From positions 1 through 44,122 of the forward strand of contig JAJRRA010000031.1 in NCBI GenBank assembly GCA_024279945.1: DNA of 44,122 bases, in the 5' to 3' direction. Positions 1 to 8,354 of the stretch are shown piece by piece (position 1 is the first letter of the stretch; each line of letters begins with the position of its first letter). Position numbers and translations under genes: made by a program. The notes beneath the pieces are model-generated. The model saw only the letters and a program-made list of their open reading frames with translations. It had not been told where the DNA came from and searched no databases. Source of the stretch: Gammaproteobacteria bacterium (GTDB taxonomy: Bacteria; Pseudomonadota; Gammaproteobacteria; Xanthomonadales; SZUA-36).

Positions 1-129
1 CGTTTGAGCTCCGATGCCACAGACTATGACATAACGGGTGCGATGTACGTTAACGGCGATGGTAATGAGATTACTCCGTGCTATTTATTTGGCAGGGATC
101 TGTTTTGGCTATTGACACGGGCTGGCTAA
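1..129 (+). CDS. C-terminal fragment of a possible short-chain dehydrogenase/reductase (partial, 5' end outside window)
   Basis: Frame 1 is open from the left edge to TAA at 127-129. It contains a stretch reading SSDATDYDITGAMYVNGDG, which resembles the conserved end of short-chain dehydrogenases (S-D-A-x-x-x-x-T-G-x-x-x-x-V-D-G-G). The last 15 or so residues (CYLFGRDLFWLLTRAG) do not look like that family. The stop lies one base before a repeat element, so the natural C-terminus may have been replaced. The evidence is short, and this could also be a chance open frame. Confidence 0.4.
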   Translation, partial: RLSSDATDYDITGAMYVNGDGNEITPCYLFGRDLFWLLTRAG

Positions 130-130
130 T

Positions 131-253
131 GGGTGACCCCTGTCCGGAGCGCGAAGCGGTTTCAGCCTGGTTTATGGCCCATTTTTACAAAGCGTGCCGT
201 TTTCAGAACCCGCTCCGCCAGTTCGATGGGGTCAGGTTCGGGAACCTGACCCC
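131..253 (-). repeat. REPIN-like repeat element (copy 1), inverted relative to the copy at 1991-2122
   Basis: It starts with a degraded palindrome half (GGGTGACCCC, 131-140), followed by flank F1 (GTCCGGAGCGCGAAGCGG and on to about 175). Next comes flank F2 in reverse (AACCCGCTCCGCCAGTTCGATG) and a complete palindrome at 228-253: the 12-base arm GGGGTCAGGTTC, a 2-base loop and the reverse complement arm. The same P-F1-F2-P order, reverse complemented, occurs at 1991-2122. Confidence 0.85.
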
Positions 254-261
254 GGCGTTAC

Positions 262-328
262 ACAAAGCGTGCCGTTTTCAGAACCCGCTCCGCCAGTTCG
301 ATGGGGTCAGGTTCGGGAACCTGACCCC
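262..328 (-). repeat. Partial tandem duplication of the repeat (F2 flank plus palindrome)
   Basis: Bases 187-253 are repeated almost exactly at 262-328, a period of 75 bases. The copy holds the F2 flank and a complete GGGGTCAGGTTC palindrome at 303-328. The palindrome ends 4 bases before the murU stop codon (333-335), so in the murU mRNA it would form a hairpin just after the stop and may act as a 3' stabiliser or weak terminator. Confidence 0.85.
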
Positions 329-332
329 TGCT

Positions 333-1963
<1,631 letters not shown>

Positions 1964-1990
1964 TTCTCTGTGGCTGTGAATCGTAAAGCC

Positions 1991-2122
1991 GGGGTCAGGT
2001 TCTGCGAACCTGACCCCATCGAACTGGCGGAGCGGGTTACGTTACTGAAATGCTGAATAGAATGATCGATAAACCAAACTGATCCCGCTTCGCGCTTCGG
2101 ACAGGTTCGGGAACCTGACCCC
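1991..2122 (+). repeat. REPIN-like repeat element (copy 2), P-F2-F1'-P
   Basis: A complete palindrome lies at 1991-2017 (12-base arms GGGGTCAGGTTC and its complement, TGC loop). It is followed by flank F2 (CATCGAACTGGCGGAGCGGG), about 30 intervening bases, the reverse of flank F1 (CCCGCTTCGCGCTTCGGAC), and a degraded palindrome at 2099-2122. Two inverted palindromes about 100 bases apart form a REPIN-like unit. No REP-associated transposase is visible in this window. Confidence 0.85.
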
Positions 2123-2135
2123 GACTTTACTGGAA

Positions 2136-2172
2136 TTGGAATCAAATAGTACTTATATGGTACGATATAAAA
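2136..2172 (+). promoter_or_regulatory. Candidate promoter/operator of the Rrf2-suf operon
   Basis: Immediately upstream of the Rrf2 start is an AT-rich stretch containing an imperfect dyad: ATAGTAC (2146-2152), 7 bases, GTACGAT (2160-2166), with one mismatch. A TTGGAA (2136-2141) and TACGAT/GATATA near 2161-2169 could serve as -35 and -10, although the spacing (19) is loose. There is no recognisable ribosome-binding site between the dyad and the ATG at 2173, so the first gene may be leaderless. Autoregulation by the Rrf2 protein at this dyad is inference. Confidence 0.35.
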
Positions 2173-2619
2173 ATGCTCAGAATTTCGAAATTGACCGACT
2201 ACGCCATCCTGATGATGGTTGAACTGGCCCGGGATGGCGAAATGCTGAGTGCAAATGTTCTGGCTGAACGGGTGAGTGTGGAAATTCCCACTGCCAGCAA
2301 GGTGCTGAAGTTATTGTCGGGTTCAGGCTTGCTTGAATCCTACCGCGGCTCCAGCGGCGGGTACTGCGTCAGTCGCAAAGCAGGTGAAATCAGCGTGGCG
2401 GAGGTGATAGCAGCTATCGAAGGTCCGATTGCCATGACCGAGTGCAGTGTCGAAGAAGGACTGTGCAGCCAGGAAGATAACTGTGGCTTGCGGGGAAACT
2501 GGCAGCGCATCAGCGTGGCCGTGGCTCGCGCACTGCAGGAAGTCAGCCTGGCGGAAATGTCAGTGCCAATGAAAATCACCCGTAATCCACTGAACATCAC
2601 GACTTTGAATACACGGTAA
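2173..2619 (+). CDS. Rrf2-family Fe-S cluster-sensing regulator of the SUF operon
   Basis: A 148-residue Rrf2/IscR-family protein. Residues 1-65 form the winged helix (MLRISKLTDYAILMMVELA through the wing GSSGGY). Three cysteines, C91, C98 and C104, sit in the ECSVEEGLCSQEDNC segment, the place where IscR binds its Fe-S cluster. It heads the operon with sufB 21 bases downstream, matching the SUF-associated regulators of Xanthomonas-like bacteria. The likely role is to repress or activate suf according to cluster status. The upstream dyad at 2146-2166 is a possible binding site. The C-terminal tail after residue 135 is short and has no known motif. Confidence 0.88.
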   Translation: MLRISKLTDYAILMMVELARDGEMLSANVLAERVSVEIPTASKVLKLLSGSGLLESYRGSSGGYCVSRKAGEISVAEVIAAIEGPIAMTECSVEEGLCSQEDNCGLRGNWQRISVAVARALQEVSLAEMSVPMKITRNPLNITTLNTR

Positions 2620-2640
2620 GTTACAGGACTAAACAGGCCA

Positions 2641-4167
2641 ATGAGTAATCAACAAAACCCGGTAGATTCCACCTCGACCCAGGCTTCGCCTGCCGATGCA
2701 CCCTCTGTCGGTTCGGCAACTGCCAATTCATCTACCGTAGATCATTTCGTACAGCAGAAGTACAAGCATGGTTTTGTCACCGACATCGAGTCTGAGACCG
2801 TGCCGCCAGGCCTGGATGAAGACATTGTCCGCTGGATTTCGGCACGCAAGGAAGAGCCCCAGTGGTTGCTGGACTGGCGGCTGGAGGCTTTTCAGCGCTG
2901 GTTGAAAATGTCGCCGCCGGACTGGGCCCACCTTAAAATTGACCCCGTTGATTTCCAGGCCATTTCTTATTTTTCAGCACCCAAATCGGATGAGGACCGT
3001 CCCAAGAGTCTGGATGAGGTTGATCCCAAGTTGCTGGAAACCTATGAAAAGCTGGGTGTTCCGCTGCATGAACGGGCCAAACTGGCTGGTGTCGTGGCTG
3101 TTGATGTGGTCTTTGACTCGGTTTCGGTCGGCACCACATTTCGTAAGGAACTGAAGAAAGCCGGAGTGATTTTCTGTTCTTTCTCTGAAGCGGTGCATGA
3201 TTACCCGGATCTGGTCAAAAAATACCTCGGCACGGTCGTGCCCTCGCGCGATAATTTTTTTGCGGCCCTCAATTCCGCCGTGTTTTCAGACGGCAGTTTC
3301 GTGTTCATTCCCAAGGGTGTGCGCTGCCCGATGGAACTGAGCACCTATTTCCGCATCAACGCCGCCGAGACCGGCCAGTTTGAGCGCACCCTGATCATCG
3401 CTGAAGAAGACGCCCACGTGAGTTACCTCGAAGGCTGCACGGCGCCCATGCGTGACGAAAACCAATTGCATGCCGCCGTGGTGGAACTGGTGGTCATGGA
3501 TGATGCGAGTATCAAGTATTCGACCGTGCAGAACTGGTACCCGGGCGATGAGAACGGCGTGGGCGGTATCTACAACTTTGTTACCAAGCGGGGCGATTGC
3601 CGTGGTGACCGTTCCCGGATTTCATGGACCCAGGTCGAGACCGGTTCTGCGATCACCTGGAAGTATCCATCCTGTATTTTGCGCGGCGATAGTTCTGTGG
3701 GTGAGTTCTACTCGGTGGCGCTGACCAATAATTACCAGCAGGCCGATACCGGCACCAAGATGATTCACATCGGCCCGAATACGCGCAGCAAGATCATCTC
3801 CAAGGGCATCTCGGCCGGGCGTGGACAGAACGCCTATCGTGGCCTGGTGCGAATTGCTAAAGGTGCGGAGAATGCCCGCAATTACACGCAGTGCGATTCG
3901 ATGCTGATTGGGAAAAATTGCGGTGCACACACCTTTCCCTACATCGAGGTCAGTAATCCCACGGCAAAGCTGGAACATGAGGCGACCACCTCGCGAATCG
4001 GCGAGGATCAACTGTTTTATTGCCTCCAACGGGGCATGTCGGAGGAAGATGCGGTATCCCTGATCGTAGATGGATTCTGCAAGCAGGTATTTCGGGAGTT
4101 GCCGATGGAATTTGCGGTGGAAGCGAAGGCCTTATTGGAAGTCAGCCTGGAAGGTGCTGTTGGATAG
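2641..4167 (+). CDS. sufB: Fe-S cluster scaffold protein SufB
   Basis: A 508-residue protein closely resembling SufB throughout: [61 protein letters not shown] and [12 protein letters not shown] are all conserved. Cys427 in [12 protein letters not shown] is the likely cluster/sulfur-accepting cysteine, corresponding as I recall to Cys405 of E. coli. SufB binds SufD and two SufC ATPases in the cytosolic SufBC2D scaffold, where sulfur from SufS is assembled into clusters. The first 30 residues are low-complexity Ser/Thr/Ala-rich and not conserved. Second gene of the operon, with a hairpin repeat between it and sufC. Confidence 0.96.
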
Positions 4168-4176
4168 GAATCAACC

Positions 4177-4207
4177 GGGGTCAGAGTAAGTTTTTTACTC
4201 TGACCCC
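4177..4207. repeat. Variant palindrome in the sufB-sufC gap
   Basis: The 13-base arm GGGGTCAGAGTAA (4177-4189), a 5-base loop and the exact reverse complement TTACTCTGACCCC (4195-4207) lie 9 bases after the sufB stop and 23 bases before the sufC start. It belongs to the same GGGGTCAG family, with AGAGTAA in place of GTTC. In the mRNA it would form a stable hairpin without a U-tract. It could tune sufC expression or protect the sufB transcript. Confidence 0.85.
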
Positions 4208-4230
4208 AAAAGGAATCAAAAGGAAAGAAA

Positions 4231-5010
4231 ATGATGCTGGAAATCAAGAATCTTCATGCTACGGTGGGTGGAAAGGCCATCCTGAAAGGGCTGGATCTCA
4301 CCATCGAAGCCGGGGAAATCCATGCCATTATGGGGCCGAACGGTGCTGGAAAGAGTACCCTGGGTAACGTGATCTCCGGCCGTGAGGGCTATGAGGTGAC
4401 GCAGGGTGAAGTGCTTTTTAATGGCAATAATCTGTTGGAACTCGAACCGGAAGAACGCGCCTGTGAAGGTATTTTCCTGGCCTTCCAGTACCCGGTGGAA
4501 ATCCCGGGTGTCAATAACACTTACTTCCTGCGTGCGGCCCTGAATGCTCAGCGCAAATATCGTGGTGAGCCTGAACTGGATTCCATGCAATTTTTGAAAT
4601 TGGTGCGCGAGAAACTGGAAATCCTGCACATCAGCGATGACCTGTTGCGCCGGTCGGTCAACGAAGGATTCTCCGGGGGCGAGAAAAAGCGCAATGAGAT
4701 TTTCCAGATGGCGGTACTGGAGCCTTCACTGGCGATTCTGGATGAAACGGACTCCGGACTCGATATTGACGCATTGCGCCTGGTGGCCAGGGGTGTGAAC
4801 CGACTGCGCAGTGAGGACCGCGCCATGATCGTAATTACCCATTACCAGCGTTTGCTGGATCATATCGTGCCCGACAGGGTTCATGTGCTGGCGGATGGAA
4901 AAATTGTCGCCAGCGGCGATGCGGATCTGGCCCTCAAGCTGGAGGAACAGGGCTATGCCTGGCTTGACCGGGGTGGTATTCAGTCGCTTGATATCGATTT
5001 AAAGGCGTGA
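4231..5010 (+). CDS. sufC: SUF system ABC-type ATPase SufC
   Basis: A 259-residue ABC ATPase. The Walker A motif GPNGAGKST is at residues 35-43, the ABC signature is FSGGEKKRNE, the Walker B is LAILDETDSGLDID, and the switch His is in VITHYQRLLD. The signature and the TDSGLDID form are characteristic of SufC, a soluble subunit of the SufBC2D scaffold and not a transporter. Two adjacent ATGs (4231, 4234) follow the site AAAGGAAAG. It is 13 bases from sufD and clearly in the same operon. Confidence 0.96.
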   Translation: MMLEIKNLHATVGGKAILKGLDLTIEAGEIHAIMGPNGAGKSTLGNVISGREGYEVTQGEVLFNGNNLLELEPEERACEGIFLAFQYPVEIPGVNNTYFLRAALNAQRKYRGEPELDSMQFLKLVREKLEILHISDDLLRRSVNEGFSGGEKKRNEIFQMAVLEPSLAILDETDSGLDIDALRLVARGVNRLRSEDRAMIVITHYQRLLDHIVPDRVHVLADGKIVASGDADLALKLEEQGYAWLDRGGIQSLDIDLKA

Positions 5011-5023
5011 GAGGAATACCAAA

Positions 5024-6349
5024 ATGAGCGCACTGGCCCAACAATGGAGCGAATCCCTTCGTTCCGCTACTCATCCTCAGGTTTTGCCGTGGCTGGATGC
5101 ACTGCGGCTTCGCGCCGTGGAGCAATTGACCAAGCATGGTTTGCCGCATCGCAAGGATGAAGATTGGAAGTACACGCCGCTGCGGGTGCTTGAACAGCTT
5201 GGCCCTGCAGTTGCAACAGGGGTCAGGGTCGAGAACCTGACCCCGGCCCCGGAACCTGAACTACCCGCTGCATTGATTGACAGTGCGGACTGTGTGATCC
5301 GTATTCATGACGGTGCTTTGGCGGGGACCGAGGGTGGCGATCAGCCCGGTGTGAGCGTTCTTTCGCTCAGCGAAGGCCTCGAGCAACACGAATCCCTGCT
5401 GCGCAAACACATTGAGTCCGTTGATATCAACGGCTCCGCCCAGGCTTTTGCTTCGCTCAACACGGCATCTCTGGACCAGGGACTGGTGATACACGTTAAG
5501 GAGCAAGCGGATGCCGGTACGGTATTGCTGCGCTGGACACTGTCCGGAACAGCCGATCCGTCGATTCACAACTTCCGCGTTTTCCTGTTACTGGGTGAAG
5601 GTTCGCGCATGCAGTTGGTGGAGCAGTACGAGAGCGCGGACCACGGCGGTAGCGCTCTCAATGTGGTATCACACTTTGATCTGGCCAGGGAAGCCGTTGT
5701 GGATCATTTGCTGCTGCAAAATGAGTCGGAAAACACCATCCTGATGAGTTCCACATACATTGAACAGGCCCAGGGCAGTCGCTACAACTATTCGGGTTTC
5801 GATCTCGGTGGCGGACTGGTGCGGCATGAATTGAAAACCGTGATGGCCGGGAGCGGAGCGCATGCGGCATTTGGCGGTGCTTTTGTACTGGATAATTCAA
5901 GGCATGTGGACAATCACATCAGCGTGGAGCATGCCGGCACCGCTTGCAGCAGCGATCAGTTCTTTCGTGGCGTACTCGGTGGGCGCAGCCGCGGTGTGTT
6001 CAACGGCAAGGCGCTGATCCGGCCCGGAGCCGATAAATCCAGCGTTCGGCAATCCAATGCCAACCTGCTGTTGTCTCCGCTGGCACAGATTGATACCAAG
6101 CCCGAGCTGGAAATATATGCCGATGAAGTTGAGGCCAGTCATGGCGCCACGGTGGGCCAGTTGGATGAAACCGCCATTTTTTACCTGCGTTCCCGCGGGC
6201 TCAGCGAGACCGAAGCAAAGCGCCTGCTGGTCGGCGCTTTTTGCCGCTCAGTCACCGACCGCCTGGAAAACCAGGAGTTGGCGGGGCGTATTGCTGAGCT
6301 TATCGACCAGGCCATGCCCAGTTACGAAAGCCGGGGTCAGGTTCTGTGA
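5024..6349 (+). CDS. sufD: Fe-S cluster assembly protein SufD, with repeat-derived segments
   Basis: A 441-residue SufD. DEDWKYTPL (residues 45-53) is the conserved N-terminal motif. The C-terminal beta-helix includes HVDNHISVEH, RGVFNGKALIRPGADK and VEASHGATVGQLDETAIFYLRSRG. SufD pairs with SufB in the scaffold and is needed for iron entry. Residues 66-74 (GVRVENLTP) are encoded by a complete GGGGTCAG-family repeat sitting in frame in the variable segment after the DEDWKYTPL motif. The last six residues (SRGQVL) and the stop codon come from another repeat copy. The core fold motifs are intact, so the protein is probably functional. Confidence 0.94.
   Translation: MSALAQQWSESLRSATHPQVLPWLDALRLRAVEQLTKHGLPHRKDEDWKYTPLRVLEQLGPAVATGVRVENLTPAPEPELPAALIDSADCVIRIHDGALAGTEGGDQPGVSVLSLSEGLEQHESLLRKHIESVDINGSAQAFASLNTASLDQGLVIHVKEQADAGTVLLRWTLSGTADPSIHNFRVFLLLGEGSRMQLVEQYESADHGGSALNVVSHFDLAREAVVDHLLLQNESENTILMSSTYIEQAQGSRYNYSGFDLGGGLVRHELKTVMAGSGAHAAFGGAFVLDNSRHVDNHISVEHAGTACSSDQFFRGVLGGRSRGVFNGKALIRPGADKSSVRQSNANLLLSPLAQIDTKPELEIYADEVEASHGATVGQLDETAIFYLRSRGLSETEAKRLLVGAFCRSVTDRLENQELAGRIAELIDQAMPSYESRGQVL
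5219..5244. repeat. GGGGTCAG-family palindrome inserted in frame inside sufD
   Basis: A 26-base palindrome: arm GGGGTCAGGGTC, loop GA, arm GAACCTGACCCC, with one mismatch in the stem. It starts exactly on a codon boundary (codon 66) and is read through as GVRVENLTP. The surrounding segment is a variable Pro/Glu-rich linker of SufD. Confidence 0.88.
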
Positions 6350-6470
6350 ACCTGACCCCAGTCCGGAGCGCGAAGCGGTGTCAGCCTGGTTTGACGCTCA
6401 TGATTACAGGCCGGGGTCAGGTTCATGGAACCTGACCCCCGTTCGGAGCGCGAAGCGATGTCAGTCCAGT
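6333..6470. repeat. Two repeat units spanning the sufD-sufS junction
   Basis: Palindromes lie at 6333-6359 and 6413-6439, each with 12-base arms and a 3-base loop. Each is followed by flank F1 (GTCCGGAGCGCGAAGCGG and GTTCGGAGCGCGAAGCGA). The sufD TGA (6347-6349) lies in the loop/right arm of the first palindrome. The second F1 flank contributes the GGAG and the ATG of sufS. The whole intergenic region is therefore repeat-derived. Confidence 0.88.
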
Positions 6471-7684
6471 TTAACGTCGAGAAGGTCCGCCATGATTTCC
6501 CCATCCTGACCCGGCAGGTGCATGGCAAACCGCTGGTGTATTTCGACAATGCCGCATCGGTCCAGCGTCCGCTCGCCGTGATCGAGGCCACGGATGATTT
6601 CTACCGCATGCACAACGCCAATGTCCATCGCGGCGTCCACCTGCTTAGCCAGGAAGCGACCGATCTGTACGAGGCGGCGCGCCGGGGATTGACCCGTTTC
6701 ATCAATGCCCCTTCGGAACGGGAAGTGATTTTTACCCGTGGCACGACCGAATCCATCAACCTGGTGGCACAGAGTTTTCTGCGGCCTCGAATCGGCCCGG
6801 GCGATGAAATCCTGATCACCCACATGGAGCACCATTCCAATATCGTTCCCTGGCAGATGCTGTGCGAACAGACCGGCGCCAGCCTGAAAGTCGCACCGAT
6901 CAACCAGCGTGGCGAACTGGAACTGGACGCACTGGAAAACATGCTGTCCGAACGGGTAAAGTTGCTGGGTATCGTGCATGTTTCAAATGCGCTGGGTACC
7001 GTGAACCCGATTGAGAAAGTGGTTCAAATGGCGAAACGATTCGACATCCCGGTGCTGGTGGACGGTGCACAGGCCATGCCGCACCAACAGGTGGACGTGC
7101 AGGCGCTGGGCTGCGATTTTTATGCCCTGTCCGGCCACAAGATGTATGGCCCCACCGGGATCGGCGCGTTGTGGGCGCGTGAGCAGATTCTGGAAGACAT
7201 GCCGCCCTGGCAGGGCGGCGGTGAAATGATCACCAAGGTAACCTTCAATGAGACCATCTACAATGAGCTGCCAGCCAAGTTCGAGGCCGGCACCCCGAAC
7301 ATTGCCGGTGGCGTTGGCCTGGGGGCTGCTATTGAATACCTGACCGGCCTGGGCATGGATGCCATATCAGTCCACGAAGCCACGATACTGGAAGCGGCCA
7401 CCGCGAAACTGTCCGCCGTTGATGGCCTGCGCATTATCGGCACCGCGGCTCACAAGGCCGGTGTCATCAGCTTCACGCTGGGTGACATTCACCCCCACGA
7501 CCTGGGCACAGTGATCGATCACCACGGTGTCGCATTGCGCACCGGGCACCACTGCGCGATGCCGGTCATGCAGTTCTTCAAAGTCCCGGCCACCGCCCGG
7601 GTTTCCTTCGGTCTCTACAACACGCTGGAGGAAGTAGACATCCTCATTGATGCACTGGAACAATCCCGCGAAATGTTCAGTTAA
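6458..7684 (+). CDS. sufS: Cysteine desulfurase SufS
   Basis: A 408-residue class V aminotransferase-fold desulfurase from the start chosen here. The PLP lysine is K228 in SGHKMYGPTG and the catalytic cysteine is C366 in RTGHHCAMP. Both are offset by two from E. coli SufS (K226, C364). An upstream in-frame ATG at 6425 would add MEPDPRSEREA, which is pure repeat sequence, so 6458 is preferred; GGAG at 6445-6448 is well spaced for it. SufS takes sulfur from cysteine as an active-site persulfide. The usual sulfur shuttle SufE or SufU is not encoded nearby. Confidence 0.95.
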   Translation: MSVQFNVEKVRHDFPILTRQVHGKPLVYFDNAASVQRPLAVIEATDDFYRMHNANVHRGVHLLSQEATDLYEAARRGLTRFINAPSEREVIFTRGTTESINLVAQSFLRPRIGPGDEILITHMEHHSNIVPWQMLCEQTGASLKVAPINQRGELELDALENMLSERVKLLGIVHVSNALGTVNPIEKVVQMAKRFDIPVLVDGAQAMPHQQVDVQALGCDFYALSGHKMYGPTGIGALWAREQILEDMPPWQGGGEMITKVTFNETIYNELPAKFEAGTPNIAGGVGLGAAIEYLTGLGMDAISVHEATILEAATAKLSAVDGLRIIGTAAHKAGVISFTLGDIHPHDLGTVIDHHGVALRTGHHCAMPVMQFFKVPATARVSFGLYNTLEEVDILIDALEQSREMFS

Positions 7685-7688
7685 AAAA

Positions 7689-7865
7689 GGGGGTAAAGTG
7701 CCAGAGTGGGCTGACATAAATGGGAGCATTTGGCTTACTTGTTTTTTGGTAATCACGCCAGGGCACGGCAATGTGCATACCAGGGTTTAATTTGCCAGCA
7801 AATATCCGTAATCCTGTGTCAAATCGGCAGAACGCCCTTTGACTCTGACACTTGACTCTGACCCC
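7689..7865. repeat. Degraded repeat pair downstream of sufS
   Basis: The left end reads GGGGGTAAAGTGCCAGAGTGGGC (7689-7711, quoted here as related halves GGGGGTA and AAGTGCCAGAGT). The right end, at 7834-7865, is its approximate reverse complement and contains GACTCTGACACTTGACTCTG followed by ACCCC. About 120 non-coding bases lie between. It looks like the two ends of a decayed GGGGTCAGAGT-type element. No gene is visible in 7685-7964. Confidence 0.55.
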
Positions 7866-7964
7866 CTAACTTCCTACCACCGTCAACACCGGAATCATTG
7901 CTCACATTGCGCTATAGTAACGTGCTCTGTTGTACCGTCAGGCACCTGCCTCAGCAAGGTAATA

Positions 7965-8354
7965 ATGAATATCACTTCCGTCAAAAGATGGTCAAAAATC
8001 AGCCTGAGGACACTCCATTTACTGGCCATCGCTGGTGTAGGTGGCGGTATTTTATTTGGCCTGGATAAAGATTTATGGATCAACTACTGGTGGCTGGCCC
8101 TGGCCTCCGGTGTTTTGATGACCTTGATGGACATCGTGGCAAACCCGGTCTGGGTTGTTCAGATCCGGGGAGTTGCGATCACCTTGAAACTGATTCTGCT
8201 TGCATTGCTGGGTAGCATTCCGGGTTGGGACAGCTACCTGCTGGTAATTATCATTGTTATTTCTGCTGTGATTTCACACGCTCCCGGCAAGCTTCGGTAT
8301 TATTCCCTCTACCACCGCCGGGTGATCAATTCCAGCAACGACACAAAGGGCTGA
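7965..8354 (+). CDS. Small membrane protein of unknown function
   Basis: 129 residues from the ATG at 7965, which has AAGG six bases upstream. A longer in-frame reading from 7839 starts inside the repeat remnant and has no membrane-protein character, so it was not used. At least three hydrophobic segments are visible (around LLAIAGVGGGILFGL, WWLALASGVLMTLMDIV and YLLVIIIVISAVISHA), with a basic N-terminus and a Tyr/Arg-rich C-terminal tail. I do not recognise the family with confidence. The neighbouring convergent gene is an NnrS-like membrane protein, so a respiratory or nitrogen-oxide context is possible but unproven. Confidence 0.7.
   Translation: MNITSVKRWSKISLRTLHLLAIAGVGGGILFGLDKDLWINYWWLALASGVLMTLMDIVANPVWVVQIRGVAITLKLILLALLGSIPGWDSYLLVIIIVISAVISHAPGKLRYYSLYHRRVINSSNDTKG

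Follow-up and report, generated by a model that had tools for sequence, protein, structure and literature searches.

The junction between sufD and sufS in this gammaproteobacterial genome has probably been taken over by a small palindromic repeat, such that the sufD stop and the SufS start region are now made of repeat sequence and the native parts are gone. The window, by which we mean the whole 44,122-nt stretch analyzed, encodes a suf operon comprising an Rrf2-type regulator (2173–2619), sufB (2641–4167), sufC (4231–5010), sufD (5024–6349, forward strand), and sufS, which ends at 7684. The first three each pass the cut-off of the fitting NCBIfam model. SufD scored 253.5 bits against TIGR01981 (cut-off 222), and SufS, read on the forward strand from our preferred start at ATG 6458 (6458–7684), scored 592.8 bits against TIGR01979 (cut-off 475.1). 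The source genome is one metagenome-assembled genome (MAG), 97% complete and in 91 contigs.

The repeat unit consists of a 27-bp palindrome starting GGGGTCAG and a flank, which we call F1, with the core CGGAGCGCGAAGCG. Two tandem copies, 80 bp apart and 85% identical over 67 nt, fill the sufD-sufS junction. Palindrome 1 (6333–6359) and palindrome 2 (6413–6439) both have perfect 12-bp arms, around the loops TGT and ATG, respectively; the first is one of 31 exact copies in the genome, and the second is likewise an exact genome copy. Palindrome 1 is followed by its F1 flank and a partial spacer (6360–6409, forward strand), with GTG in place of the later ATG. In copy 2, the F1 flank (6440–6476, forward strand) holds the putative sufS ribosome-binding site, the start codon, and the first six codons. 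A third palindrome copy, with one arm mismatch, lies in frame inside sufD (5219–5244), where it codes GVRVENLTP and falls in a variable-length linker of the SufD alignment.

These matches are far too numerous to be chance. Within the window, the arm pattern was found 15 times at up to one mismatch (0.74 expected) and the F1 core four times at up to two mismatches (0.33 expected). Genome-wide, we counted 31 exact palindromes and 41 F1 cores at up to one mismatch, compared to 0 and 2 for the reversed patterns. Searched as a 15-mer at up to one mismatch, the F1 core occurred 36 times in the source genome vs. once for the control, and 0–6 times per genome in 38 other members of the family (controls 0–5). 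In a sample of 299 genomes from the order, only 3 had the exact palindrome: the source genome (31 copies), the same-genus genome G011 (three), and G263, a genome of another family (six). The 31 palindromes are spread over many contigs, with dimers among them. A consensus of 26 full copies, a set without L010, L011, L012, and L027, has a palindrome at each end and a conserved spacer, and folds as one long hairpin; in some copies, one end is a GGGGTCAGAGTAAG-type palindrome instead. At locus L009 (G000:C34:41090–41211), a palindrome is followed by four 36-bp units in tandem that consist of F1 flank only. A further GGGGTCAG-type remnant lies 3′ of sufS at 7685–7866 (GGGGGTAAAGTGCCAGAG ... ACTCTGACACTTGACTCTGACCCCC), and GGGGTCAGAGTAAAGTGCCAGAG ends similar to it occur near transposase matches in G011 (L171 1326, L172 1945). 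An Rfam scan of positions 1–8200 returned a single match, to the mir-148 model; it scored 22.5 bits, below the gathering score (53), and we attribute it to chance similarity of a hairpin.

The preliminary description of this DNA had placed the GGAG and ATG of sufS in the F1 flank of the second palindrome, and this held. The GGAG at 6445–6448 (forward strand), a likely Shine-Dalgarno (SD) sequence, is separated by 9 nt from the ATG at 6458–6460, and both, together with the first six codons, are F1 sequence following the palindrome at 6413–6439. Mean six-base agreement with 26 other copies was 0.60–1.0 over 6429–6476 and 0.12–0.29 from 6477 on; in this comparison, the core at 6444–6457 is identical by choice of copies, and L010, L011, L027, and the sufS copy itself are excluded. 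Because the similarity ends at 6476/6477, the repeat codes ATG TCA GTC CAG TTT AAC (MSVQFN), and the native part of sufS starts near GTC GAG AAG (V7).

Few other starts are available to this gene. An in-frame stop ends 54 nt before ATG 6458, and the starts listed are an ATG at −33 (6425), the ATG at 0 (6458), and a GTG at +60 that lies within conserved sequence. Both ATG, GTG, or TTG codons that preserve the conserved SufS N-terminus, with rarer start codons outside the count, therefore fall in the repeat, and initiation inside the repeat is close to forced if that N-terminus is kept. Recruitment of the element as the sufS translation-initiation region, as the preliminary description proposed, is thus well supported by the letters, both because the two usable starts are repeat-borne and because the relatives discussed below lack this repeat there and have different native starts. 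A short form of SufS is plausible, as the solved SufS structures have few additional N-terminal residues when aligned to it (residue 3 of 1i29 with query residue 5, and residue 2 of 5db5 with query residue 3). Pairing of the GGAG with what we take to be the 16S tail (anti-SD) was computed at −5.8 kcal/mol, comparable to sufD (−6.0) and sufC (−5.6), while its 9-nt spacing from ATG 6458 is a little long. In local folding, the GGAG was unpaired with a probability of 0.40–0.49 and ATG 6458 with only 0.24–0.31. Between them, the F1 core includes GCGAAGC (6450–6456), a very stable DNA mini-hairpin.

The other repeat-borne ATG, at 6425–6427 on the forward strand, sits in the loop of palindrome 2 and opens an in-frame reading frame to 7684 (6425–7684), so that SufS would begin MEPDPRSEREAMSVQFN... 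and the hairpin itself would bear the start. We consider this unlikely, even though the resulting N-terminus is closer in length to several relatives and an SD-like GGGGU forms a duplex of −5.7 kcal/mol with the same assumed anti-SD, equal to the GGAG of 6458. As a loop, ATG 6425 was unpaired at 0.93 in the shortest-range folding and 0.36 in the widest, but its SD is closed in a 12-bp G+C-rich stem and was unpaired at only 0.16 to 0.02. With that site shut in the stem and the GGAG about half open, we infer that SufS starts at ATG 6458 rather than at 6425.

It had also been suggested that the hairpin just upstream may control access to the sufS start; palindrome 2 ends 5 nt 5′ of the GGAG. Such a switch might act, for example, through two foldings, each palindrome alone or 1 with 2, and the palindromes are indeed 93% complementary to each other. 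The junction region also folds better than shuffled sequence (−88.7 vs. −60.9 kcal/mol, z −6.5), but palindromes fold well by construction, so this value is uninformative on regulation. Moreover, the computed folds leave the GGAG and ATG 6458 outside the palindrome stems, though partly paired with other sequence, and the structure is kept in no relative read. Hairpin control is therefore unsupported speculation and, in our estimate, improbable.

How the ATG at 6458 arose is a separate matter. Its position had been described as reading GTT, GTG, or GGA in other copies, which is correct for the three other copies in the window but does not describe the genome. Across 30 exact cores, the codon is GTT in 11, GTA in 7, GTG in 4, ATG in 2, and ATT in 2, with GCT, CTG, CCT, and GCA once each. 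The accompanying idea that a single base change made the start codon was not borne out, since GTG is already a start codon and the commonest form, GTT, is two bases away from ATG. With the codons spread in this way over 30 copies, we rejected a one-base origin of the sufS ATG as unproven. The other copy with ATG (L025) opens a frame of only 14 amino acids, and one copy with GTG at this position (L029) opens a frame of 100 codons, shorter than the 120 amino acids required in the scans below.

At the other side of the junction, the sufD TGA (6347–6349) lies inside palindrome 1, as had been stated, the T belonging to the loop and the GA to the right arm. Another TGA in the same frame, also in the arm, comes next at 6353–6355. 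The SufD C-terminus, SRGQVL*, is repeat-coded, while SufD of same-genus G011 ends ...MPSFTQEN*. This use of the repeat as a stop is not unique to sufD. When open reading frames of at least 120 amino acids were scanned over the 31 palindromes, six genes stopped inside five of them: sufD and five others, all five with Pfam matches. These encode a histidine kinase (L021), the exonuclease VII large subunit (L043), an AstE/AspA-type protein (L182), and the convergent pair MurB and 5′-nucleotidase, for which one palindrome (L045 1501–1526, G000:C49:104994–105019) stops both. Both proteins of the pair end in GSGSRT, a tail found in three of the five other genes. The stop is an arm TGA in four genes and a loop-formed TGA in two (sufD and L182). 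In addition, an open reading frame of 493 codons (L028) ends in a sister palindrome of GGGGTCAAAGTAAG type.

These gene ends lend some weight to a different emphasis, in which the repeat serves mainly as 3′ punctuation of sufD, through stop-codon stalling or protection of the mRNA end, and sufS is tolerated with a makeshift start. In E. coli, translation is reportedly reduced by palindromic REP repeats that lie no more than 15 nt from a stop (PMC12306157, citing its reference 17, as far as that text relays it). We regard this as a reasonable minority possibility; it is compatible with our main reading, but punctuation alone leaves the repeat-made sufS start unexplained. We also looked for further repeat-borne starts. 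Over 61 repeat segments (palindromes and F1, several from one element) and open reading frames of at least 120 amino acids, two besides sufS began inside the repeat (L023, 244 amino acids, and L031, 144 amino acids); neither had a Pfam match, and L023 lies against a longer opposite frame. A gene with a Yip1 domain (L047) crosses a palindrome but was rejected as repeat-started, its start, with AGGAGAGAG before it, being downstream of the palindrome.

Comparison with relatives, which had been proposed as a check, favored the takeover of the junction. Of 39 genomes searched in the family, 30 yielded a SufS locus, the window's own included, leaving nine junctions outside the comparison. This repeat was absent at the sufS junction in all 29 other family genomes read, and their native starts differ; at one of these loci (L051), where no upstream sufD could be located, the junction was assessed by eye. 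Among 107 loci with sufD directly upstream, a set that counts some species twice (e.g., L049 and L081, L050 and L078), only the window had the palindrome in the junction. The distance from the sufD stop to SufS V7 was 126 nt in the window, compared to 20–81 nt across 28 further loci of the family. Within the genus, the comparison is with G011 alone, as G012 was without a close SufS match. G011 has a native sufS start 22 or 25 residues before V, by choice of ATG, and its junction reads MIEMDTAASTLDGTTVAEPAGHPLDVEKVR in translation. No trace of this stretch is left in the window: aligning the 99 native nucleotides of G011 with the 153 nt of the window gave a score of 15.0, compared to a shuffle mean of 14.1, and 152 of 500 shuffles reached it. 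Measured against G011, the native sequence has thus been replaced and not merely pushed apart.

Repeats mislead assemblers, and a MAG in 91 contigs might have linked sufD to sufS by way of repeat copies that belong to other places. We judge such an artifact very improbable, because sufD and sufS adjoin in the relatives too, the two junction copies differ from each other (85% identity), and the palindrome, F1, and sufS are joined within <100 nt, the frame staying open for 408 codons once the ATG is reached.

For the takeover that we favor, the order of events can only be inferred. A palindromic repeat of the GGGGTCAG class would have come between sufD and sufS as two partial tandem copies, with loss of the native sufD end, of the original ribosome-binding site and start of sufS, and of its native codons before V7 (22–25 in G011). 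SufD now stops in palindrome 1, and translation of SufS would begin in the copy 2 F1 flank, at its GGAG and ATG, with MSVQFN coded by the repeat and native sequence from near V7. A short shared sequence possibly helped the join, as some F1 copies read TTT(G/A)ACG and sufS of some relatives reads TTTGACGT or near it at this point. This is only an idea, since G011 reads CTGGATGT there, not TTTGACGT. A likely effect would be that two strong hairpins now separate the sufD and sufS cistrons.

Unrelated genome-wide repeats of two families also occupy this junction elsewhere, at loci L050, L051, L053, L090, L091, and L092. Palindromes of the form GGAGCGGC-N-GCCGCGA were found in the junction of G001, G002 (at whose locus no sufD was identified), and G007, with 36, 143, and 9 genome copies, respectively. 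Repeats of CGCAAAG type were found in the junction of L090, L092, and L091, where CGCAAAGRCGCNAAG has 18, 21, and 34 genome copies; by the pattern used, they were absent from the L088 and L099 junctions, with 85 and 22 genome copies. It could be that the palindrome offers portable stops and F1 a latent GGAG-9-NTN start that turned into the real one of a conserved gene, and that the junction is a preferred site of landing or retention, reached by unrelated repeats in several lineages because uncoupling the translation of SufBCD from that of SufS is useful. We hold this to be a long shot, and the recurrence was noticed after the fact.

Overall, the repeat is of a known kind but its role here is uncommon, and this use of stray DNA is clear without being unprecedented. 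Small palindromic repeats are usually regarded as extragenic clutter or 3′ elements. A clear case in a conserved iron-sulfur cluster gene, with the native N-terminus lost, would show that they are able to remake the 5′ end of a housekeeping gene, including its ribosome-binding site, start, and first codons, and could help to explain how latent starts carried by mobile repeats come into use. It is also a warning for start-site annotation in repeat-rich genomes.

Among known systems, the repeat likely belongs to the TIR repeats of TIRtrons (the GGGGWSAS class), judging from its motif and arrangement. In the portion of PMC3733652 (Di Nocera et al. 2013) available to us, the TIR repeats of TIRtrons/TIRYT are described as carrying the motif GGGGWSAS, occurring singly, as dimers, or in groups, and being tied to tyrosine transposases. 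GGGGTCAG fits this motif and is part of the pattern matched by all 31 exact palindromes here, and our repeat is similarly dispersed, with dimers and the four-fold 36-bp F1 array. Membership is likely but not closed, because no transposase locus was read with GGGGTCAGGTTC ends: they were found at 0 of 12 Y1_Tnp loci (two in G000, six in G011, and four in G263, G000 and G011 being incomplete). In G263, one Y1_Tnp match is bordered on either side by sister GGGGTCAGAGTAAAT ends, and GGGGTCAGAGTAAAG-type ends lie near two Y1_Tnp loci of the same genus (L171, L172). The transposases at L001 and L002 were rejected as movers of the repeat, their near flanks being GGGGCCGGATACA and GTAAGAG repeats. At L002 (G000:C26:23192–26521), the tyrosine transposase match adjoins arrayed GTAAGAG... 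palindromes, which belong to another REP-like family. A text search of the literature for the exact string GGGGTCAGGTTC gave no match.

A second comparison is with REPINs (Bertels and Rainey 2011). Set beside REPINs as outlined in the accessible text of PMC3116915, full copies here are alike in being two inverted palindromes around a spacer, with a consensus that forms one long hairpin, but differ in that each end is a full palindrome and the sufS copies are partial and tandem. Beside the palindromes, inspection by eye of the copies printed found no consistent unpaired head of GTAG type, a trait of GTAG REPs and REPINs.

Repeats that touch coding sequence are likewise known. According to the available part of PMC3733652, REPs that overlap the ends of open reading frames often supply the stop (TAG) and also occur at NH2 ends, where its authors suspect that many genes start downstream of the repeat. 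SufS differs from such cases in that no downstream ATG, GTG, or TTG keeps its conserved N-terminus. Among the titles listed in our literature search, none names a REP that supplies the start of a conserved gene, which does not imply absence from print. Finally, Rickettsia palindromic elements and ERIC/MITE fusions place small palindromic repeats in frame with conserved genes, as the accessible sections of PMC10969869 and PMC2229807 describe. The in-frame repeat within sufD (5219–5244) resembles these, whereas the sufS junction does not: they are in-frame insertions or fusions, as far as those sections go, and here the repeat would itself provide the ribosome-binding site and the start.
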